From the NCBI GenBank assembly GCA_002839355.1, contig PGXW01000025.1, positions 1 to 64,000 of the forward strand: a stretch of 64,000 nt of DNA, given 5' to 3'. Shown here in pieces: positions 48,089 to 62,886 of this stretch. Every line of letters starts with the position of its first letter. Position 1 is the first letter of the stretch. Below the pieces are notes generated by a model. That model was given only the letters and a program-made list of their open reading frames with translations, made no database searches and was not told where the DNA came from. The position numbers and the translations under genes are program-made. Source of the DNA: Spirochaetae bacterium HGW-Spirochaetae-2. GTDB lineage: Bacteria; Spirochaetota; Spirochaetia; Sphaerochaetales; Sphaerochaetaceae.

Positions 48089-49249
48089 ATGAAACAGATA
48101 ACGGAACTCCATCAACTTGAACATGAGGAAAAGCCGAAGGTAGTGGTGACGGTTCCCGGTCTCTATACATTGCTGGGAGAATTCGCCGACTACTGCAAGG
48201 GTTATACGCTCTGTGGAGCAGCTCCTGTCTCGCTGGAGGTTGCCATCTCGGCACGTCAAGACCAGAGTGTACGTTTGTTCATGGCTCCCATGAAGGATCG
48301 AAAACGCTTCAATCTGCAAAATATCAAGTTCCGTCGTGAGGATCGTTGGGCCAATTTCATCAAGGGTGTGGTTTCCATACTCAATGCCCGCGGCTTCTCA
48401 ACCGGAGGGTTCAATATCACATTCTCGGGCGATTTGTTGGCCAAGGAAGGGGCCATGGTCAACTCGGCGATCGCCCTTGGTGTGACCATAGCCTTGCGCG
48501 AATTGTGTATTCCGGAATTGAAGATCGAGGATTGCGCCGCAATCGGTTATTCCGCGCTCTCCTCGTTTGCCGGCGAGAACTGCCGACTTGTCATGTTCCT
48601 TGCTATGATGCAAGTCCGTTCGGACTCCCTGCTCCTGTACGACGTACACCACCTCACCTACGAGAGGATTCCCTTTGATGTGGAAGACAAATCCATATTG
48701 ACGATGATAGTCGAAAGTCGTATTTCTCCCCACGCCCTTCGCGAGGAGCTGGTGATCAGACGGAAGGAGAGCAAACTTGCGTTTGAAAGGCTGCGAAGTG
48801 CCTTCCCCTCCGGCCTTTTGCGTGATGTCTCCGACCAGGAAGTCAAGGAATCGGTGGGCATGCTCTCTGAGGAAGAAAAGCGCATTTGCCTGTATGTGCT
48901 CTCAGAAAGTCGCTTGGCGAAGGAAGGAGCACGTCTGCTTGCACAAAAAGATATGGTGATGTATGGTAAGGTTCTAAGCAGGGTGCAAGCAGGATTGCGG
49001 GATGTTTTCGAAGTGACCTGTCCGGAAATCGACTGGTTGACGAAACGTGCCACCGAGATAAACGGCTGCCTTGGAGCAACCATGATCACCACTGGTTCAA
49101 GTGGCACGATACTGGTGTTGCTGTCCAACGAATCGCTTGCACAGTATACTGCTCGAATGGAGGAATACGAGCATATCTTTGGTTTTAGACCCACATGGAA
49201 TTCTTATGCTCCTGTTGGGGGACTCAAGATAGACTCTTACCGTGCATGA
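48089..49249 (+). CDS. Galactokinase-like GHMP-family protein, degenerate motifs
   Basis: A 386-residue protein with the galactokinase layout: PGLYTLLGEFADYCKGYTL near the N-terminus corresponds to the PGRxNLIGEHxDYxxG signature, then a GHMP domain and a C-terminal GHMP_C region (GCLGATMITTGSSGTILVLL). Key changes are GEH to GEF, and a GHMP loop reading LLAKEGAMVNSAIA instead of GLSSSA. Kinase activity on galactose is doubtful. The stop overlaps the surE start (ATGA), so the two are probably cotranslated. Confidence 0.72.
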   Translation: MKQITELHQLEHEEKPKVVVTVPGLYTLLGEFADYCKGYTLCGAAPVSLEVAISARQDQSVRLFMAPMKDRKRFNLQNIKFRREDRWANFIKGVVSILNARGFSTGGFNITFSGDLLAKEGAMVNSAIALGVTIALRELCIPELKIEDCAAIGYSALSSFAGENCRLVMFLAMMQVRSDSLLLYDVHHLTYERIPFDVEDKSILTMIVESRISPHALREELVIRRKESKLAFERLRSAFPSGLLRDVSDQEVKESVGMLSEEEKRICLYVLSESRLAKEGARLLAQKDMVMYGKVLSRVQAGLRDVFEVTCPEIDWLTKRATEINGCLGATMITTGSSGTILVLLSNESLAQYTARMEEYEHIFGFRPTWNSYAPVGGLKIDSYRA

Positions 49250-52285: not shown

Positions 52286-53977
52286 TCAACACTCCGAATG
52301 GAACTCGCTGCCGCCGATGAATTCGCGTAGCAGCGAGTCGGTGGGGACGAGGTTTGCCGGAATCGGATAGACATTCTCCAAGAACGTAAGCAGTCTCCTT
52401 GCTGTTGGATATGCCTCGTATGCTTCGGGCTTTACCGTCTTGAGCAGTGGTTCGGCATAGGGTTTCAGCACCGGCAACTCGTATTCCAACGCCGAATTGA
52501 TCATGACATCGGCCTGGTTCTGGAATGGGAATATATGGTGCGTCTCCCCCCGTTCCACCGAAGGCCACATTTCCAGTGTCATCTGTGCTGTTGTACTCCG
52601 CGTCCGGTTGTCCCGCACTATTCGTCGAAGTATCCTGTTGTCCGTGGTTGATATCCGGTTGTGGTCATCAAGGTTCAGCTGTGTCAGGGCCGATATATAG
52701 ATCTTGAACGTCGTTTTCGGATCGACTCCGGGAACAAGATTGGGGTTGAGGCCATGGATCCCCTCGATTACCAGAATGGTATTGTCCTTGAGACTGATCG
52801 GCTTGTTTTCGAAATAGCGCCTGCCGTTGTTCTTGAAATCGAAGCGGGGTAGATCCACCTCCTCTCCGGCATAGAGCAACCTGAGATTCTCGCGGAACAG
52901 GTCCAGATCCAAAGCCTCCAAAATCTCCAGGTCCGGTTTCCCATCCGCATCCAATGGCGCTTCGGTCTTGGGCCGGTAGTAGTTGTCCAGCGAAATCTGT
53001 ATGGGATTGAAACCCAACAGACGCAATTGTATCGCCAAGCGGATGGAAAAGGTCGTCTTTCCCGAGGACGAGGGACCGGCGATGAACACGACCTTGACAG
53101 TTCCCTTCTCGCTCACCATATCCGCTATTTTGGCAATCTTCCTATGTTGCAAATCCTCGTTCATCCGGATAAACGTGAATATCTCCTGCGAACCGCAGAT
53201 CCGGTTCATGGCACCAAGACAATCAACCTTGAGGATATTCCCCCACAACTTGTATTCACGGAATATGGAAAAGAGCAACGGGTTGTCCTTGAACTGGGCC
53301 AGATGCAAAAAATCGGCTGACAACGGGTACCTGAGCAACATCCCCCGTTCCCCGTATGGCCGCAATTCCCATATATCGAGAAGGCGGGTAGTGGGAAGCA
53401 ACGGTTCATAGGAAATATCAAGGAATTCTCCGCACCGGTACAATTCGAGTGTAGGATCGTTGCGGTACGACAGCAGTTGTTCAGTCGCGATATAGCCTTT
53501 CTGGTGGAAATGCTCTACTGCGGCGGAATAGGCAACCGTCTCCTGTTGTATCGGAATATCCTCGGAGACCAGGGAGCGCAACTCTGCGGCCAGCGCATGG
53601 ACATCCTCCTTTGCAAGCGAGAACATTCCGTCAAAATTGAAATAGAATCCATCACCCAGCGCATGGGCTATGACCAATCGCCGATCGGGAAACAACCGCT
53701 CGCTCGCATAGGCAAGCAGATAGCTCAGCGTGTGCCGGTACATCCGCTTGCCTATATCGGAGAACATCCGTACCGTTTCGATCGTGGCATCCACCGAGAT
53801 GCGGGCACCGAACGACATGATTTCATTGTTCATGCGCAAGGCAATCACCGGATTGTCTTCGTATCGCAAGGACTCCTTGTTCAGCGCGAGATGCTTGGTG
53901 ATGATGTTCTCGACACGCATACCTGCGGGGATACGGATTGATCTGGTTCCGAGCTGCAATGTAACAAAACGTTCCAT
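52286..53977 (-). CDS. TGS-domain uridine/nucleoside kinase fusion
   Basis: A 563-residue protein. An N-terminal TGS-type domain and a ThrRS second-domain-like region (residues 1-240; HALGDGFYFNFDG, YRNDPTLELYRCGEFLD) precede a P-loop kinase of the uridine-kinase family with GPSSSGKTTF at 301-310 and IVIEGIHGLNP-like switch residues. The same architecture is known as nucleoside kinase in Thermotoga, spirochaetes and Bacteroides. Its SD overlaps the end of the upstream iron-ADH-like gene, so it is the last gene of a four-gene minus operon and is convergent with nifU. Confidence 0.85.
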   Translation of the reverse strand: MERFVTLQLGTRSIRIPAGMRVENIITKHLALNKESLRYEDNPVIALRMNNEIMSFGARISVDATIETVRMFSDIGKRMYRHTLSYLLAYASERLFPDRRLVIAHALGDGFYFNFDGMFSLAKEDVHALAAELRSLVSEDIPIQQETVAYSAAVEHFHQKGYIATEQLLSYRNDPTLELYRCGEFLDISYEPLLPTTRLLDIWELRPYGERGMLLRYPLSADFLHLAQFKDNPLLFSIFREYKLWGNILKVDCLGAMNRICGSQEIFTFIRMNEDLQHRKIAKIADMVSEKGTVKVVFIAGPSSSGKTTFSIRLAIQLRLLGFNPIQISLDNYYRPKTEAPLDADGKPDLEILEALDLDLFRENLRLLYAGEEVDLPRFDFKNNGRRYFENKPISLKDNTILVIEGIHGLNPNLVPGVDPKTTFKIYISALTQLNLDDHNRISTTDNRILRRIVRDNRTRSTTAQMTLEMWPSVERGETHHIFPFQNQADVMINSALEYELPVLKPYAEPLLKTVKPEAYEAYPTARRLLTFLENVYPIPANLVPTDSLLREFIGGSEFHSEC

Positions 53978-53982
53978 GTAGA

Positions 53983-55245
53983 TTACCTCTTTTGATCGTG
54001 GGTGTATGAAGGCTGTCCATCGTTATGATCGAGCGGATACCCCCAGTAGGCAGCCTCCAGTACCCGAATCAGGTCCTGTATCGTCGGTTGTTGTCTGCTG
54101 GTCAAAAGATCAAGGGAGTCGTAGGCGATTGTCGCGATTTCTTCCATCTGTTGTGGCAGCAACACCCGTTCCTGCCCCTTCTGGTCCAGGATATCGTAGA
54201 AGCGCGAGGGAATTGCCGGAGACACCGAGGACGTGAGACCTGTAAAGAATTCAGATACCCAATGTATGAACAACAGCGCATCCTCCTCCAACTCCACCGG
54301 ATCATCGGCAAATAGGTTGTTGGAGAATACCATGAGTGAGTTCAAGCGCGCCAGCATTGGTTCTGCGCCTGCCAAATTGAATCTCAACGCGTGTGGCAAC
54401 AATATCCTCATCCCCAAACCGTAGGAAATGTCGGTGGTTTGGGAGAGTACGATAGACAACGTATGCGCAATTGATCCACCCGTATGGGAAATCGCAATAC
54501 CTGCAAGCTGGGAAGCGATCGCTATTTGCATCCTCGCCTCGAGGTCATGGGGGGTGTGTACCACCCGGAAGGAATTTGCGACGACCAACTTCAACGCCTG
54601 CATGGCAAAGGCCTCGGTGGTGGGTACGGATAGGATGCTGGTCATGGACTCTATGGCTCGTCCAACGATAGCTGCCACGCCATATGCCGTTTGCGTACCT
54701 GATACGGATTTCGACATTTTGGGATCCAAGAGGGCAATGTCGGCGAAAAGGCCCGTATCGTCGATGCGAAGAGGTACGCCCGTAACCGAATTGCGTACAT
54801 AGGCGAGTTTCGTCCCTCCGCTACCGGAACCCAGTGTAGTTGGAATTACAATCAAGGGAACTTGCTTCGTACACGTTGTTCCTCCCAGTCCCTCGAGTTT
54901 CATCGGATTCCGTGATGCATCGGATAGCATCAGCTTGGCGGTCTTTGCGATATCCATGACCGAACCACCACCGACAGCGACAATCGCATCATGCCGTCCC
55001 GCACTGTATATTCCCACCAGTTTGGTGGCGGTATTCAAGGAGATTTCCTTCGCACCAAGGATCACCGGGTCTTGTATGGTTCCAAGCAGTTCGACGATTC
55101 CCGTACCCGATGCCTTTCGGCTTAGGATGAACAGGGGATGCGTGGACCCCAATGACGCAAGGAGCTCGGGCAATTGTTTGATGCAACCTTCCCCGGCGAT
55201 TGTTTTCACGGGAAGATGCAACGAATAATCCTCGAACCGTTTCAC
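53983..55245 (-). CDS. Iron-alcohol-dehydrogenase-fold protein lacking metal ligands (paralogue 1)
   Basis: A 420-residue protein with the class III ADH fold: an NAD-binding AVGGGSVMDIAK, then PTTLGSGSGGT. The metal region is degenerate. The D..HAIE stretch reads AAIVGRAIES, so the Asp is Ala and the His is Arg. A further His is lost in ISYGLG in place of PHGL. Only the AHTLS His remains. It is likely a pseudoenzyme or has a changed activity. Starts at GTG that overlaps the stop of its upstream neighbour. Confidence 0.75.
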   Translation of the reverse strand: MKRFEDYSLHLPVKTIAGEGCIKQLPELLASLGSTHPLFILSRKASGTGIVELLGTIQDPVILGAKEISLNTATKLVGIYSAGRHDAIVAVGGGSVMDIAKTAKLMLSDASRNPMKLEGLGGTTCTKQVPLIVIPTTLGSGSGGTKLAYVRNSVTGVPLRIDDTGLFADIALLDPKMSKSVSGTQTAYGVAAIVGRAIESMTSILSVPTTEAFAMQALKLVVANSFRVVHTPHDLEARMQIAIASQLAGIAISHTGGSIAHTLSIVLSQTTDISYGLGMRILLPHALRFNLAGAEPMLARLNSLMVFSNNLFADDPVELEEDALLFIHWVSEFFTGLTSSVSPAIPSRFYDILDQKGQERVLLPQQMEEIATIAYDSLDLLTSRQQPTIQDLIRVLEAAYWGYPLDHNDGQPSYTHDQKR

Positions 55246-56303
55246 AGTGCACCTCCCTGTGCCGGGAAGAGCGAAAGCAATGGCTCAAGCTCCCGTATGT
55301 GCCGTGGATTCATCAACAGTCCGTGTGTATCGCCACAGAGTTGCTGGATTACCCGATCAGTTCCTTTCGGTTCAGACAGGGTTACCCACGCGTTTGTGAA
55401 TTCCACCGGATCCATTCCCAGCAATATCTTGCCGATTTCCTTGTATAGCAAGGGGTTGGTATTTCCGATGTACCGCATTACAAAGGGAAGCAAAGCAGCT
55501 GCAGTCTGTTGTCGGTCGGCCAGAGACGGTATTGCCAAGGTCTCGGCGAAGGAGACTATCGTGGAAATTCCCCGATTTTCCGCACAAACTCCCGCGGCAT
55601 GCAAGACTGCTGAAGCAGAAAGTGTGCAATCTACCCACGAGGAACTTTCCTTCGACGCGGAGAGGATCAATTCCAACGTCTGGTGCGAGTGCTTGAAAGC
55701 GGATTCGGCAAAACCCATGAGCATCGGATCGGTTGAGCCGAGTATCGAAGTACACACATGTAGGAGCGATGTGCACATGGTACGCGCCACCTCTTTCCGT
55801 GTCGCCAAACGAGTCAACCGACCATCGAAGACGGCATGTACCGCGACGGTGTCCTCCGATTCGACCGCAGAGGTATCCGTGTGGAATCTACCTTGGCATT
55901 CACTGCCGTCCAGAGTTCCGAAGGGGACCACAATCAGAGAGATCGGATGTACTCCCTTCGTCTTGAGCAGCACGTGCTTGGCGTATCCGATGCATGTAGC
56001 GTTTCCGCATGCGACCAGACAGTCGAAATCTCCGGTCGCCACTGTTTGCGTTGTCGAGAGTAGATCCTCCCCACTCCATTCGTTATCCACCTGGACCGAG
56101 TGGTATGCACCCTTCCCATACAACTGGGTCAGGACCTTTTTCACCACGCCCTGATGAATACCCTTGGGAATCAGCCACAAGGGATACTTCAATGCATGTG
56201 ACTCCATGATCTTGAAAACATGGTCCAAGACCTCTGTTCCTACAGAGATTTGTGTCTGTACGTGGAATTTGAAGCCGGTCTCAAGCGGTTGTTTCAACGT
56301 CAT
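55242..56303 (-). CDS. Iron-alcohol-dehydrogenase-fold protein lacking metal ligands (paralogue 2)
   Basis: A 353-residue protein from ATG 56303, which overlaps the stop of the preceding gene (ATGA). It has the same fold family as its neighbour: the GGGS turn is CGNATCIGYAK, then VVPFGTLDGSE, VFDGRLTR and LLPFVMRYI. The metal site is even more altered: the Asp position is Thr (TSLLH) and IPHG is IPSL. A longer frame back to 56741 is a shadow of the adjacent gene and is rejected. A paired, possibly heterodimeric role is inferred. Confidence 0.72.
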   Translation of the reverse strand: MTLKQPLETGFKFHVQTQISVGTEVLDHVFKIMESHALKYPLWLIPKGIHQGVVKKVLTQLYGKGAYHSVQVDNEWSGEDLLSTTQTVATGDFDCLVACGNATCIGYAKHVLLKTKGVHPISLIVVPFGTLDGSECQGRFHTDTSAVESEDTVAVHAVFDGRLTRLATRKEVARTMCTSLLHVCTSILGSTDPMLMGFAESAFKHSHQTLELILSASKESSSWVDCTLSASAVLHAAGVCAENRGISTIVSFAETLAIPSLADRQQTAAALLPFVMRYIGNTNPLLYKEIGKILLGMDPVEFTNAWVTLSEPKGTDRVIQQLCGDTHGLLMNPRHIRELEPLLSLFPAQGGAL

Positions 56304-56761
56304 GTCGTAGCGTCCTTCTGGAACAACAGATACCAAAGATACCGTATCTTGATCGAAAGGGTTCCACCGGTACCCTGCAAGTCGGGGGACAAGGAATAGC
56401 GGATCAACCGGTTCATCGCCATGATATGCGCGGATTGTCCCGAAACGGCGATTTCTCCCCGGGCAAGTGCGGCACGGGCGTGTTCCTTTCCCCTGAGGAT
56501 ACGTGCAGCTTGTCTTCCCGATGAGAATCGATACTGTACCGACTGGTAGGATTCGGGTAGCGTCTGCACAGGACGGAAGTATTGGCCCTCTTTCTTGAAG
56601 TGGAACTGAATCGTGGTGTCGGCTGCCGGTACGTCGCAACTGATGACGAGTCCCTCCGGGAGCGACTCCATCTGCTGCCTGACCATAGGCACGAGTTGGG
56701 CATACGCTCCGATTTTTCGACAGAGATAGTAAAGTTTCCAAGTATAGTTGCCACTGCCCAT
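56300..56761 (-). CDS. Small SCP2-like protein, first gene of the minus operon
   Basis: A 153-residue protein. The middle is basic, and residues 78-115 (RFSSGRQAARILRGKEHARA and GEIAVSGQSAHIMAMNRLI) resemble the SCP2 sterol-carrier fold, where a hydrophobic pocket binds lipids. The assignment is tentative. It is followed by two ADH-fold genes with overlapping starts. ATG 56761 has SD AGGAG and the promoter just upstream. Confidence 0.5.
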   Translation of the reverse strand: MGSGNYTWKLYYLCRKIGAYAQLVPMVRQQMESLPEGLVISCDVPAADTTIQFHFKKEGQYFRPVQTLPESYQSVQYRFSSGRQAARILRGKEHARAALARGEIAVSGQSAHIMAMNRLIRYSLSPDLQGTGGTLSIKIRYLWYLLFQKDATT

Positions 56762-56780
56762 GTTTCAGCTCCTAGGGGAC

Positions 56781-56809
56781 ATTCTACCGGGAGTAGTCCC
56801 ATTCTGCAA
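56781..56809 (-). promoter_or_regulatory. Minus-strand promoter of the ADH-fold operon
   Basis: TTGCAG (56809-56804), 17 bp, TAGAAT (56786-56781). The spacer contains a GGGA/TCCC dyad (56789-56800 on the plus strand). It is back to back with the aldehyde-oxidoreductase promoter; 24 bases separate the two -35 elements. Confidence 0.6.
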
Positions 56810-56832
56810 GGCTGATGAAAGTTGTTCTATGA

Positions 56833-56861
56833 TTGACATATGGCTGTAGGCTGGGTAGATT
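56833..56861 (+). promoter_or_regulatory. Plus-strand promoter of the AOR-like gene
   Basis: TTGACA (56833-56838), 17 bp, TAGATT (56856-56861). The transcript would start near 56868, and the SD AGAGG (56871-56875) is directly downstream, six bases before the ATG at 56882. Confidence 0.65.
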
Positions 56862-56881
56862 GGGTGATACAGAGGTTGTAG

Positions 56882-58696
56882 ATGAAAAAAGTGGGGGGTG
56901 GTAGACAGTATCTCTTGATCGACCTTGCTTCCGAGCAGTGGGAAGTGCGCTTGATTCCCAGCGCCGACTACGATAGATACCCTGGGGGTGAAGCTCTTGG
57001 TCTGCATTTGTGGTCCATGCATTCACCGGCCTCTTCCAATTCCACAGCGGCCGAGACTCCGCTTTGTTTTGCCTGCGGGGCATTGAGCGGATCGACGATG
57101 ATGTGTTCCAGTAGCCTTTCGGTCGTAGGACAATCCCCGGCGACCAATCTGGTCGAGGCCGATACGACTATCGTCGGTGCTGCCGAATCCATGGCATCGT
57201 GTGGCTGGCGGGCAATTGTCCTCACCGGTATCGCCAGGCGTCCAATGGTATTGCATGTCAGCTCGAAATCGGTCGATTTTATCCACTCGGAGCGATTGAT
57301 CGGCAAAACCGCAACCGAAACCATTCAAGCATTGCAAACAGGAGAAGCTGTTTCCACTATGGCCATAGGACCTGCCGGTGAGAACGCAGTGGCCTATGCG
57401 TGTATTGTCAACGACGAGCTGCCGATCGACCGGCATGGATTCGGAGCGGTTCTCGGCGAGAAGCATATCAAGGCATTGACAGTCGATAGCGGTTCCATGG
57501 AAGTCGTTCCCGCGGATTCCGAACGGTTTGCCGCATCGATAGCCGAAATATCATCGATACTTGCCAAAAGTCCCTTCGTGGATGAATTCAAACAGAAGGG
57601 GCCTCTGGGGTTGATCGATAAGGCGATGGACAAGGGATTCGCTGCAGTCGACAACAATTCGAAACGGACCGATCCTCGGTTGTTCCACCTCAGCGGGAAA
57701 GAATGCGCAAGAAGGTTCTCCCTCGATGCAACCACCTGTGTCGATTGCCCCCTCTCATGCCAACGCAAAGTCATGCGCCCCGGTGGCGAGGATATGGTCC
57801 TGCCCGATGCTATGGGGATGATGGCACTTGGTTCGAATTTGGGAAATTATGATCCCACGGTGGTCATGCAGTGGTGGCAACAGTGCGTCGATCTTGGATT
57901 GCATCCGGTTTCCACCGGCATGCTGCTAGGCTGGGTAATGGCCGCACAAGCGAAGTCCTTGCTGCAGACGGCTCCGTTGATACGGTTTGGTGAGACGGAT
58001 GGAATATCTGAAACAATCGATTCGATTGCAAAAGGTACCGCAACCGGTCAACAGTTCGCACAAGGTTCCCAGGTTTTTGCCCAGGGATCATGGGATGATG
58101 CGCTCTCCTCTGCGATAGATTCTCAGGTCCTTGGACGCGGGATGCTTCCGGTCGACCCCCGTGGAGCCTGGGGCGAGGCGCTTTTGATTGGCCTCGGCGA
58201 GGATTTTCCCCTTGTTCCCGAGGTGGTGCTCGATTGGTTGCCAAACGAATCCACACGAGCCAAGGCGGAGTGGGTGGTAATCCAGGAAAACCTGTTGGCA
58301 GTGATGCGTTCGGTCGGAATCTGCCCCTATCTGATGGTTCCCTTGGTATTCGAAGCCGGAACAAAGCGATTCCACAAGATAGTGTTGCGTCTATTGGCCC
58401 GATTTCCTTCAATCTCCCGGTCATTGGTCAATCTCGATCCGATAGCCGATTTGCTCAGCAGTTTCTCGGGTGTCGAGGCATCCTCCCCGCATTTGATGGA
58501 TGTCGGGCGAAGGGCGGTGTTTCTCAAGCAGTTGGTAAACGATTCCCCCAAATCATATCCTGCGGAAATTCCCGAACGGTTCTCTTCGGATCCCGAGAGC
58601 AACCATGCGGGAGATGCGATAGTTCCCTACCGGGCTCTCGTGGGACGATACCGCTTCCTGCGGGCTTTGGATTTGGCAAAAATCGAGGAGAGTTGA
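56882..58696 (+). CDS. Aldehyde:ferredoxin oxidoreductase-family tungstoenzyme
   Basis: A 604-residue AOR-like protein, normal length. The N-terminal fold has LLIDLASEQW and YPGGEALG. The [4Fe-4S] ligands are Cys286, Cys289, Cys293 (TCVDCPLSC) and Cys481 (GICPYL), matching the spacing of the Pyrococcus enzyme. Cofactor-binding LPVDPRGAWGEAL and HPVSTGMLLGW are present. AORs oxidise aldehydes to acids using tungstopterin and ferredoxin. It is divergent from the ADH-fold operon. The outer-membrane-like gene starts 2 bases after its stop. Confidence 0.85.
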   Translation: MKKVGGGRQYLLIDLASEQWEVRLIPSADYDRYPGGEALGLHLWSMHSPASSNSTAAETPLCFACGALSGSTMMCSSSLSVVGQSPATNLVEADTTIVGAAESMASCGWRAIVLTGIARRPMVLHVSSKSVDFIHSERLIGKTATETIQALQTGEAVSTMAIGPAGENAVAYACIVNDELPIDRHGFGAVLGEKHIKALTVDSGSMEVVPADSERFAASIAEISSILAKSPFVDEFKQKGPLGLIDKAMDKGFAAVDNNSKRTDPRLFHLSGKECARRFSLDATTCVDCPLSCQRKVMRPGGEDMVLPDAMGMMALGSNLGNYDPTVVMQWWQQCVDLGLHPVSTGMLLGWVMAAQAKSLLQTAPLIRFGETDGISETIDSIAKGTATGQQFAQGSQVFAQGSWDDALSSAIDSQVLGRGMLPVDPRGAWGEALLIGLGEDFPLVPEVVLDWLPNESTRAKAEWVVIQENLLAVMRSVGICPYLMVPLVFEAGTKRFHKIVLRLLARFPSISRSLVNLDPIADLLSSFSGVEASSPHLMDVGRRAVFLKQLVNDSPKSYPAEIPERFSSDPESNHAGDAIVPYRALVGRYRFLRALDLAKIEES

Positions 58697-58698
58697 GA

Positions 58699-60084
58699 AT
58701 GCGGCGGCACATGGCGAAATCCGGTCCGAATCGTAGATTCTTACCGTTCGTCATGTTCCTTTGCGTTTGTCTGCCGCTATTCGCTTCCCATCAGGTCACC
58801 AGCTTTACCTCAATCATGTTCAACGACAGCATAACTCTCGGTCTTTCCGAGAATTCAGACGATTTGCGATCCTATGGCATGGAGTTCGCTTTCCACCATG
58901 AATCGAATTGGTTGGGAGAGCTGTCTGTCAGCGGGTTGACCCAACGCAATGCGTTTGACGATACCAGTGGCAGGTATGATGAGGTGATCTTGCAGGCGGG
59001 ACGGCTGTTCCATTTCCATGTGGGCAAGGGTGATCCGGAGATGGCTGTCCAGGTCATTCCCTTTGCGGGGTTGGTTTTCGCCGGGAATATGGGCTTCGAT
59101 CTGGCCCAGAATCTTGTGCATGCGTCTTTGGATATCGAGGAGGTGGATTTGCCGTACGAGTATGATGGCGTACGCGTGTATCCACGGTTCGGAATCGTCC
59201 AGACCTTCGAATACCGGGAGCCGGCACCATGGTTTTCAATCACCGACCTGGTGTTCCGCGCGGAGGTCGAGGCTTTCTATTCACCAGGGTACGCGGCGCG
59301 AATTTTCTCGAGTGTTGCTGTCGGCCAATATACTACGTCGATCAGCGAGCTGTCTGTCGGTTTGGGGTATGCCTGGGAGTCTGTGTCAGACGGCTGGCTT
59401 TCACATGAGTTGGTCGGTGCGAACGAGACGGGGGTGGTTGGGTTCCTGAAGGGGCATTTCGGGTTGCTGGCGTTTTCGTACAAATGGTACCTGGATAGTC
59501 TGCAAGGCTATGGCGGGTTGGGATTCGATGTCGCATTCGATCAGGGGAAGGTTTGGGAGCACAACGATTTGTTGTTGTCGTTGGGGATGATGCTGCCGTA
59601 TCGTGTTTCAACGATGTCCTTACGCTACACTGTGGTTGGCGATTTCGGGGTCTTTATTGCCAATACGTTCAAGATGGTCCCGCTGGAGGATGAGCGCCGT
59701 GTGCGTGAGAATGTGTCCTCCTGGCATGTGGGCGGCGAGTACGAGTTCTCGCGACTCGATGTCGGGTGGATGCGTCCTTTCGCTTCTCTGGGTGCGGGAG
59801 TACGGAGATTCCTTGTCATGGGTGATGCCGATGAGGATGCGGCTGATAGCAATGGCCGTGTGCGGTTGTCGCAGGATGTGCGGTTTTCCATGGATGCTGC
59901 CGTTGGTTTGAGGTTCTTTACCGGGGGACAATTGCAGTTCAATGGGGTTGCTTATGGCTTGGAGGTTGCGGGAGGGTTGTTCTTCACGGATTCGCATGAT
60001 TTTGAAAGTGATTTTGACTTGGAGTTGACCCAGAGGTGGATGCCGTATGTGCGTGTTGGTGTCACTGTAGGCGGGGCGATCTAG
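58699..60084 (+). CDS. Predicted outer-membrane beta-barrel protein
   Basis: About 461 residues from ATG 58699 with SD GAGGAGAG. An N-terminal signal (about residues 1-31; basic MRRHMAKSGPNRR, then PFVMFLCVCLPLFAS) has a Cys but no clear lipobox. The rest alternates aromatic and polar residues, as in porin-like barrels, and ends YVRVGVTVGGAI. The family was not recognised. A longer frame into the AOR gene is rejected. Base content is G/T-rich on the coding strand. It is probably cotranscribed with the AOR gene. Confidence 0.65.
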   Translation: MRRHMAKSGPNRRFLPFVMFLCVCLPLFASHQVTSFTSIMFNDSITLGLSENSDDLRSYGMEFAFHHESNWLGELSVSGLTQRNAFDDTSGRYDEVILQAGRLFHFHVGKGDPEMAVQVIPFAGLVFAGNMGFDLAQNLVHASLDIEEVDLPYEYDGVRVYPRFGIVQTFEYREPAPWFSITDLVFRAEVEAFYSPGYAARIFSSVAVGQYTTSISELSVGLGYAWESVSDGWLSHELVGANETGVVGFLKGHFGLLAFSYKWYLDSLQGYGGLGFDVAFDQGKVWEHNDLLLSLGMMLPYRVSTMSLRYTVVGDFGVFIANTFKMVPLEDERRVRENVSSWHVGGEYEFSRLDVGWMRPFASLGAGVRRFLVMGDADEDAADSNGRVRLSQDVRFSMDAAVGLRFFTGGQLQFNGVAYGLEVAGGLFFTDSHDFESDFDLELTQRWMPYVRVGVTVGGAI

Positions 60085-60689: not shown

Positions 60690-61850
60690 TTAAAAATAGA
60701 GATATGCTGGTTTGCGGTTCCCATTGAAAGGAATCCTATCGCGTACTTGCAGCGGAGTGACGAGACGGCAGAACCAGCAGTCTTCCCATTGTGGGGATAG
60801 GGTGGTCTTGGTGCGGAAAGCCCGTCGATTGAAGAACGCGTCCTTGATACGTTCGGAATCGATATGCGGCAATCCGGCTGCCTCAGCATGGTTTTTATCT
60901 GGTTTGCGTACCCGATATGGTTTGAAGAAATTGTGGTAGGCGAGATAGCATAGGAATCTTTGGAAATTTCGATTCGCTTCTCGAGGAAAGCTGGTTGTCT
61001 CGCGTTGCCAGTCGGCGAGGTCATTGCGCAGGCGAGCATCGATGTAATTTACTGGAAATAGAGGGTTTTTCATGTCCCGCCAACATCTGGAGGAGGTGAT
61101 GGAATGGACAAACCGGCTGGAAGCCATCATCTTTGCGATTTTCTTGTTTCTGCACAATTGTTGCGCATAGAGTCTCTTGTCGTCACTGTTGCAGACTATG
61201 GACAGCTTGTCTTGGGAACGATTCTCGACGACTTGGACTATATGGTCGACCAATTCTCTGATCGAGTTTGTGAACGCTCCCCGTTTCCACAATCCGATTG
61301 AATCGAAATACGCACGACGTCGTTTTTGAAAGGCATTCATCCTCCCGGCTCTTCTGAAAATCACCTGGGTAACCATACCGACGTATTGGGAATATTGTCC
61401 GACTGCAATCGTATAATTGTTTGGCTGGTATTGGCTTCCTGTGAAATTCTGCATTCCGTCGATTGCGATGTCTTCGAGTGTGTGGATGCACCTGTTCGAT
61501 TCGGTTATCGCAGCCATAGATTGTCGGGATAGAATTTGAAGCTTGTGTGCAATGGTCCGGGTTGTACATCCGAAGTGTTCGGCCAGTGCCCGTTGGCTGA
61601 ATCCGTTGCAATAGTGGAACAACAAGTCCTTCAGGTCTATATCGATCCGCTTTGCATAATAATCGAGATGGAATATTCTTTCAGTGAACGATTTTCCACA
61701 AGTTTTACACAAGTACCTTTGCACATACCCGTGTGTTCGTGAGAAATAAAATCCTCTTAGGATCCACCAATTTCGATGCTTATAGGGATTTGGGGTATGT
61801 TCCGGACAATCCGGTACAGGACAAAACGGGGGAGTGAAGGTGCTTTTCAT
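60690..61850 (-). CDS. Transposase-like protein with zinc ribbon and HTH
   Basis: A 386-residue protein from ATG 61850. An N-terminal zinc ribbon uses Cys10, Cys15, Cys48 and Cys51, then a helix-turn-helix (about 82-107, GFSQRALAEHFGCTTRTI) and a DDE-like catalytic region with IAIDGM (Asp131) and NSDDKRL (Asp223). This is the plan of IS1/IS1595-type transposases. The third acid is not assigned. No terminal inverted repeats or target duplications were seen, so whether it is a mobile element is unsure. Confidence 0.6.
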   Translation of the reverse strand: MKSTFTPPFCPVPDCPEHTPNPYKHRNWWILRGFYFSRTHGYVQRYLCKTCGKSFTERIFHLDYYAKRIDIDLKDLLFHYCNGFSQRALAEHFGCTTRTIAHKLQILSRQSMAAITESNRCIHTLEDIAIDGMQNFTGSQYQPNNYTIAVGQYSQYVGMVTQVIFRRAGRMNAFQKRRRAYFDSIGLWKRGAFTNSIRELVDHIVQVVENRSQDKLSIVCNSDDKRLYAQQLCRNKKIAKMMASSRFVHSITSSRCWRDMKNPLFPVNYIDARLRNDLADWQRETTSFPREANRNFQRFLCYLAYHNFFKPYRVRKPDKNHAEAAGLPHIDSERIKDAFFNRRAFRTKTTLSPQWEDCWFCRLVTPLQVRDRIPFNGNRKPAYLYF

Positions 61851-61953
61851 ATGATGTACCTCTTGAAATCCTCTTCTGTATCCAATAACCTCGATGTAGT
61901 TGGTTTTGCTTCGAAGTAAGACTCCAGTTTTGTCATCACTACGGAGGCCCCCC

Positions 61954-62886
61954 ATGGAAATCCTCACAATGACCTGCTCGGACAACAAACAAATCTACTA
62001 CCGCGCCTGGCTCCCAGAAAACGGAAACATCCATTCGATCCTGCAAATTCTCCACGGCATGGCAGAGCATAGCGGCCGCTACGATCGCTTCGCAACCTAC
62101 CTCAACACCCTTGGAATCGCCGTATACGCACAAGACCACCGTGGCCACGGCCTCACGGCATCCGACGAGGAACTCGGTTGGTTCGCCGACAAAAACGGCT
62201 GGGAACGCGTCTGCCAGGATGCCATCGAACTTGGCCAAACCATCACCCGAAACCACCCAGGCAAAGACCTCTTCCTCCTCGGACACAGCATGGGCTCCTT
62301 CCTTGTGCCGAACATCATCCAACAGAACCCCGGACTCTACGTCGGAGCTATCCTGAGCGGCACCGGAGCCAGCAAAGGCGCAGTCGGAGCCATCGGCAAG
62401 CTCGTTGCGAAGATCCGCGCACTCAGAGGCGGCGGACGGAGACCCGATGAACTCATGGACAACCTGAGTTTCGGCTCCTTCGGCAGAGCCTTCCAACCCC
62501 AGAAGACGACCTTCGACTGGCTGAGCCGCGATGAACAGGAAGTCCAGGCCTACATCGCCGATCCCCTATGCGGCTTCGTCTGCACATCGAGATTCTTCGT
62601 CGACCTGCTTGACGGCATCGCACTGGCCACCAGCAAGCGGACCATCGACAGAATACCCAAGGACCTTTCCATCTACTTTATCAGCGGAGCGAACGATCCC
62701 GTCGGCGACTTCGGAAAAGGCGTGCAGAAAGTCTACAAGCAGTACAAGAAAGCCGGAATCGAAGACATCACCTTGAACCTGGTGAAAGGCGCCCGCCACG
62801 AACTGCTCAATGAAACCAATCGGGAAGACATCCACAGGATGATCGGCTCATGGCTTGAACACCACAAGACCCGACAGAACAGATAA
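61954..62886 (+). CDS. Alpha/beta hydrolase (monoacylglycerol-lipase-like)
   Basis: A 310-residue serine hydrolase of the lysophospholipase/monoacylglycerol lipase type. The oxyanion motif HGMAEHSGRY is near residue 34, the nucleophile Ser112 is in GHSMGS, and the later Asp (SGANDPVGD) and His (GARHELLN) complete the triad. ATG 61954 has the SD GGAGG. The coding strand is unusually C-rich compared with genes to the left. Confidence 0.9.
   Translation: MEILTMTCSDNKQIYYRAWLPENGNIHSILQILHGMAEHSGRYDRFATYLNTLGIAVYAQDHRGHGLTASDEELGWFADKNGWERVCQDAIELGQTITRNHPGKDLFLLGHSMGSFLVPNIIQQNPGLYVGAILSGTGASKGAVGAIGKLVAKIRALRGGGRRPDELMDNLSFGSFGRAFQPQKTTFDWLSRDEQEVQAYIADPLCGFVCTSRFFVDLLDGIALATSKRTIDRIPKDLSIYFISGANDPVGDFGKGVQKVYKQYKKAGIEDITLNLVKGARHELLNETNREDIHRMIGSWLEHHKTRQNR

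Follow-up and report, generated by a model that had tools for sequence, protein, structure and literature searches.

An aldehyde oxidoreductase homologue at a conserved spirochaete locus that has probably lost its pterin cofactor and been reused as a non-catalytic protein

Does the aldehyde oxidoreductase (AOR) homologue of Spirochaetae bacterium HGW-Spirochaetae-2 still act as a tungsten enzyme, and do the genes around it form a redox system with it? The question arises from the window, the 64,000-nucleotide stretch of contig PGXW01000025.1 analysed here, in which a preliminary description had proposed a candidate redox system, perhaps one converting an aldehyde of a lipid or of an imported compound. 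All six genes described there were found in place (Table 1), and the AOR faces an operon of the 153-aa, two ADH-fold and kinase genes across a divergent gap of 120 nt, in agreement with that description. The minus-strand genes, from the 153-aa gene through ADHb and ADHa to the kinase, overlap by 4 nt at each of the first two junctions and are 5 nt apart at the third, and owing to this tight packing they very probably form one transcript. On the opposite strand the outer-membrane gene starts 2 nt past the AOR stop codon. Candidate promoters are placed in the gap for both directions, a sigma-70-like TTGACA-17-TAGATT (+) on the AOR side and CTGAAA-16-TATACT (-) on the minus side, with 2 sigma-70-like sites observed in the scanned stretch compared with 0.3 expected.

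Table 1. Genes and sites of the AOR locus (window coordinates) and loci of the related AOR genes referred to in the text
Feature	Position or loci	Strand	Remarks
Galactokinase-like (GalK-like) protein	48089..49249	+	same locus as AOR
Nucleoside kinase, uridine/phosphoribulokinase type	52286..53977	-	ThrRS-like N-terminal region; Walker A intact
ADHa, iron-ADH fold	53983..55245	-	PF00465 3e-26; NAD GGGS-D motif retained, without metal ligands
ADHb, more degenerate ADH-fold paralogue	55242..56303	-	PF00465 7e-5, under cut-off; NAD and metal motifs lost
153-aa fast-evolving protein	56300..56761	-	SCP2-like by motif order, candidate fold
Shared divergent promoter region, 120 nt	56762..56881		predicted sites in both directions
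AOR homologue	56882..58696	+	AFOR_N 1e-43, AFOR_C 3e-38; four Fe-S cysteines, pterin/catalytic residues lost
Predicted outer-membrane beta-barrel protein	58699..60084	+	signal peptide; 9 orthologs; alternation test
Transposase-like ORF	60690..61988	-	between phosphoesterase and lipase genes; no Pfam match
g21 loci with four-cluster polyferredoxin upstream of pterin-free AOR	L067, L068, L097-L104		kinase on same strand
Canonical-looking AOR paralogues in family genomes	L046, L089 (G122); L047, L090 (G022); L091 (G027)		

Both AOR domains of the window protein score over the Pfam cut-offs and extend over its full length. The residues expected to hold the cofactor were located in an alignment of 121 AORs, 22 canonical and 99 from the window lineage (termed syntenic), against residues 28-497 of the P. 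furiosus AOR. In A. aromaticum AorB the pterins receive hydrogen bonds from Arg75, Gly94 and Asp504 (PMC10413684), and these three residues are equated here with P. furiosus Arg76, Gly95 and Asp489. Arg76 is present in 20 of the 22 canonical sequences compared with 1 of the 99 syntenic ones, Gly95 in 21/22 compared with 5/99, and Asp or Asn at position 489 in 19/22 compared with 1/99; the window AOR has S, I and R at the three positions. Catalysis in the family has been proposed to involve Glu313 and His448 (PMC12096430). His448 occurs in 21/22 canonical and 0/99 syntenic AORs, the segment carrying the catalytic histidine being deleted in all 99, and Glu311 in 21/22 and 1/99, respectively. At the second-shell positions Glu313 and His448 the window AOR has M and a deletion. 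Because GAPOR, YdhV and BamB, active clades lacking His448 and second-shell residues, still bind the cofactor (PMC12096430), it is the loss of the pterin-binding residues, taken together with the missing cofactor biosynthesis described below, that carries the argument, and not His448 alone.

Profile searches of the genome from which the window derives (99.8% complete) found no MoaA, MoaC or MoeA. Its single PF00994 (MoCF-domain) gene, a frame of 482 aa, is CinA-like in our reading. An AOR relative is present in 130 of the 139 genomes of the family, MoeA in 2 and MoaC and MoaA in 11 each, and as a control all 17 spirochaete genomes of other families with canonical AORs carry MoeA and each has a MoaA match, six of these matches falling under the curated family cut-off. 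The absence of the pathway from a single MAG is not conclusive, because three family genomes (G122, G022 and G027) contain additional canonical-looking AOR paralogues with neither MoeA nor MoaA found; contaminant contigs, recent transfers and incomplete bins are possible sources of these genes. A further ten family genomes (G004, G006, G017, G019, G080, G082, G093, G094, G131 and G137) have MoaA and MoaC with no MoeA found, G094 having two further MoCF-domain genes, and they possibly retain a reduced pterin pathway. Judged from its residues and gene content, the window AOR can with high confidence be predicted to have lost the tungsten or molybdenum bis-pterin cofactor and aldehyde-oxidoreductase catalysis. 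The label of a tungsten AOR has to be withdrawn, with the pterin-binding and catalytic residues gone and the three biosynthetic genes missing from the same genome, and the proposed aldehyde conversion falls with it, since the ADH-fold proteins are also without metal ligands.

The explanation favoured here, and considered fairly probable, is that the AOR belongs to a pterin-free pseudoenzyme lineage reused as a non-catalytic binding or scaffold protein, to which further pseudoenzymes were added in one subclade. Cofactor and catalysis would have been lost close to the origin of a single spirochaete family, probably the Sphaerochaetaceae, and the pterin-free AOR then kept at one syntenic place beside a nucleoside kinase. 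The former active-site cleft may now bind another ligand or partner, with the AOR-fold protein acting as a non-redox binding, scaffold, regulatory or ligand-carrier component; a function by binding is suggested because the Fe-S cluster, the only redox property the protein could still possess, is dispensable in the lineage. In the window subclade two metal-less ADH-fold pseudoenzymes and the SCP2-like protein would have been inserted before the kinase and the outer-membrane gene behind the AOR. The AOR would there probably form a complex with the ADH-fold pair, and the outer-membrane protein, co-transcribed with the AOR, may connect this complex to a function in the envelope.

The partner proteins are defined to different degrees. 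The kinase has a clear PF00485 domain (6e-14), which bears out one half of its earlier description as a TGS-uridine kinase; for the other half there is no TGS match in Pfam, and residues 81-199 form a ThrRS-like segment in NCBIfam. Comparison of the ligand positions shows that both ADH-fold proteins are metal-less, as had been described, and none of the 19 cluster ADH orthologs compared has a complete Asp-His-His-His metal set. The GGGSxxD nucleotide motif is kept or nearly kept in ADHa of genera g1, g9, g20 and g6 and lost in ADHb and in g16. A galactokinase-like protein is encoded at the same locus, and in 22/22 orthologs compared its ATP-binding motif GLSSSAA has been lost along with much of the PGRVNLIGEHTDY signature; by these motifs the family has, close to the AOR, another pseudoenzyme common to its genomes.

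The 153-aa protein has no Pfam match. The order of its motifs and of its predicted helices and strands is shared with the SCP2 sterol-carrier-like domain, and the best match to the SCP2 profile, from one of ten family members, has E=0.11 and is not significant. An SCP2-like fold is suggested by the motif order, by this one ortholog and by the secondary structure of a very poor AlphaFold model (pLDDT 37, one near-identical relative supplied), so that of the SCP2-like protein reported earlier the gene and its motif order stand, with SCP2-like as a candidate fold. A plain sequence search finds the protein in 4 genomes, and position combined with profile comparison adds g6 and g20, whose members are joined to those of g1 and g9 by hhalign with a probability of 98%. 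The g16 counterpart is positional only (hhalign probability 5%).

The outer-membrane protein has 9 orthologs and no match in Pfam or PDB, and its AlphaFold model, again with one near-identical relative supplied, has a pLDDT of 26. It carries a signal peptide, and the hydrophobicity alternates with z of 2.2-3.7 in the 8 full-length orthologs; for these two reasons the beta-barrel predicted in the preliminary description is plausible. The protein has the motifs ND, SYG and QNxxH in the same order as ND, YTNG and QxxxH of LpxR. An LpxR-like lipid A deacylase was nevertheless rejected, with an hhalign probability of 1% and hmmsearch E values of 0.08 or worse, and also because LpxC, needed for lipid A, was found in 0/139 family genomes.

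In most genera the gene order runs GalK-like, SurE, a cysteine-rich gene, NifS, NifU, kinase and AOR, followed by a YfcE-like phosphoesterase, a lysophospholipase-like hydrolase and a BrkB-like membrane protein. Kinase and AOR are divergent except in g21, where they share a strand. Among the 94 loci that could be tested, 76 have the kinase no more than 3.5 kb upstream of the syntenic AOR, and in 62 the two genes are immediate neighbours; the kinase is upstream of 0/20 canonical AORs. The transposase-like ORF of Table 1 was observed in no locus other than those of the window and its closest relative. Genera g1, g9, g6 and g16 have the two ADH genes and the small gene between kinase and AOR, and g20 has the small gene with at least one ADH; the barrel gene is placed 3' of the AOR in the five genera g1, g9, g16, g20 and g5. 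In the AOR tree the genera bearing these genes fall together on a single branch (11 sequences, SH-aLRT 94), and co-occurrence of the AOR with both ADHs and the small gene holds in one subclade of four to five genera. On the evidence of gene order and tree, an older AOR-kinase pair was joined only later by the ADH-ADH-SCP2-like operon and the outer-membrane gene. Neither the combination nor a pterin-free protein of the AOR family was found described in the open-licence literature, in keeping with the earlier statement that the combination is undescribed.

The same comparison bears on the possibility that the genes are neighbours through inherited chromosome order alone and have separate, unrelated roles. 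The conserved block exceeds the six genes, running from GalK-like through BrkB-like and including clearly unrelated functions, and the additions can be separated, g5 having the AOR and barrel genes without the ADHs and g6 the ADHs without the barrel gene. Against such an arrangement by inheritance stand the ADH-ADH-SCP genes, which overlap one another at the AOR promoter, the outer-membrane gene placed immediately behind the AOR, and the recurrence of the set across four to five genera of one subclade, and it is regarded as unlikely. Of the joint function earlier read from the shared gap, the lasting placement of the set beside the AOR in four to five genera is confirmed; that the added genes are functionally linked to the AOR we infer, at somewhat better than even chances. 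The more specific envelope and scaffold role, read from the sequences, would be tentative, and the same caution applies to the fullest form of the proposal, in which a retired tungsten enzyme, two dead ADHs, the SCP2-like and outer-membrane proteins and perhaps the dead GalK-like protein might have become an assembly without redox activity that binds a new ligand and has a new function in the cell.

The Fe-S cysteines distinguish the reuse as a binding protein from a second possibility, a pterin-free Fe-S protein in which a [4Fe-4S] cluster serves as a one-electron carrier or as a redox or iron sensor and the kinase and ADH-fold genes are regulated or partner genes. The window AOR has CxxCxxxC and the distal Cys and so retains all four Fe-S cysteines, as had been noted; a 2023 study found the four cysteines in about 99% of the proteins of the AOR family (PMC10413684). 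Among the 99 syntenic AORs all four are present in 8, the window copy and seven others, the CxxCxxxC triplet is kept in 56, and in 20 the first three cysteines are all missing. In a tree of 73 AOR sequences calculated with the trait columns excluded, all syntenic AORs fall into a single clade (support 100) on which the cysteine trait requires at least 8 changes, most simply read from the alignment as repeated losses because the triplet is present in every outgroup sequence. In genus g21 a four-cluster polyferredoxin is encoded directly upstream of the syntenic AOR in 10 of 11 loci, as it is in four loci of canonical outgroup AORs, and for this reason the window lineage probably descends from an AorA-AorB-type enzyme, the g21 arrangement of polyferredoxin with pterin-free AOR being an intermediate stage. 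This retained polyferredoxin, the cysteines of the window copy and the NifS and NifU genes adjoining the locus would all suit an Fe-S protein. However, the 20 orthologs without any of the first three cysteines share the clade and mostly the genomic place, so a lineage-wide function cannot need the cluster, and no ferredoxin is adjacent to the AOR in the window. An Fe-S function is judged distinctly unlikely.

A new enzyme, whose altered cleft would carry out another reaction that needs no pterin, is improbable. Selection is strong: comparison of the window with its closest relative gives dN/dS values of 0.095 (AOR), 0.105 and 0.107 (the two ADHs), 0.143 (153-aa protein) and 0.099 (barrel), as against 0.02-0.04 for GalK-like, SurE, NifU and the kinase. 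A core of Arg266, Asp425-x-Arg427 and Gly479 (window numbering) with GxAGE is common to the genera of the lineage, a degree of conservation that a simple scaffold might not require. Canonical AORs share most of these residues, however, so that they may be structural, and the alignment of the window lineage revealed no new set of acid-base residues or metal ligands that is conserved from genus to genus.

An active tungsten or molybdenum aldehyde oxidoreductase with a salvaged or otherwise made cofactor would be consistent with the clear AOR domains and the complete Fe-S ligands of the window copy; it is highly improbable given the lineage-wide loss of pterin-binding and catalytic residues and the failure to find MoaA, MoaC and MoeA in the genome. 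An enzyme of the YdhV/BamB type was rejected as well, because the window AOR is without the additional Cys that serves as a metal ligand in the YdhV clade and its pterin residues are lost. Decaying pseudogenes, which fast divergence and motif loss might suggest, can be dismissed as refuted, because dN/dS near 0.1 and AOR frames open in nearly all 130 genomes indicate that the AOR, ADH, 153-aa and barrel genes are fast-evolving and maintained.

According to a 2025 review every known member of the AOR family carries a tungsten or molybdenum bis-pterin (PMC12096430). In the lineage described here, which extends over the greater part of one bacterial family, the pterin residues and often the cysteines too are lost, yet selection is strong, and this speaks against annotating such AOR relatives as tungsten enzymes. 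The lineage also offers a natural series for the change from enzyme to non-enzyme, with cysteines and ferredoxin, with cysteines only, and with neither.

Compared with known systems, ADHa matches the Fe-ADH domains of the group III iron-dependent ADHs, which include the regulatory ADH-like ErcA; ErcA is its best-scoring equivalog model, all scores being far under the equivalog cut-offs. In contrast to that group the window pair is without metal ligands and consists of two diverged paralogues side by side. The YdhV/BamB clade resembles the window AOR in being without the usual second-shell residues (PMC12096430), whereas E. coli K-12 YdhV keeps the equivalents of Arg76 and Gly95 and has the extra Cys336, none of which is present in the window protein. 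The closest comparison is with the AOR/WOR family itself (P. furiosus AOR, 1AOR; Aromatoleum AorABC). Unlike these enzymes, the window lineage has the His448 segment deleted and Arg76, Gly95, Glu311 and Asp489 lost, cofactor synthesis is missing from the genome, and the cysteines are dispensable; like them, the window protein has both AOR domains at full length and the Fe-S cysteines, and the polyferredoxin upstream in g21 resembles AorA.
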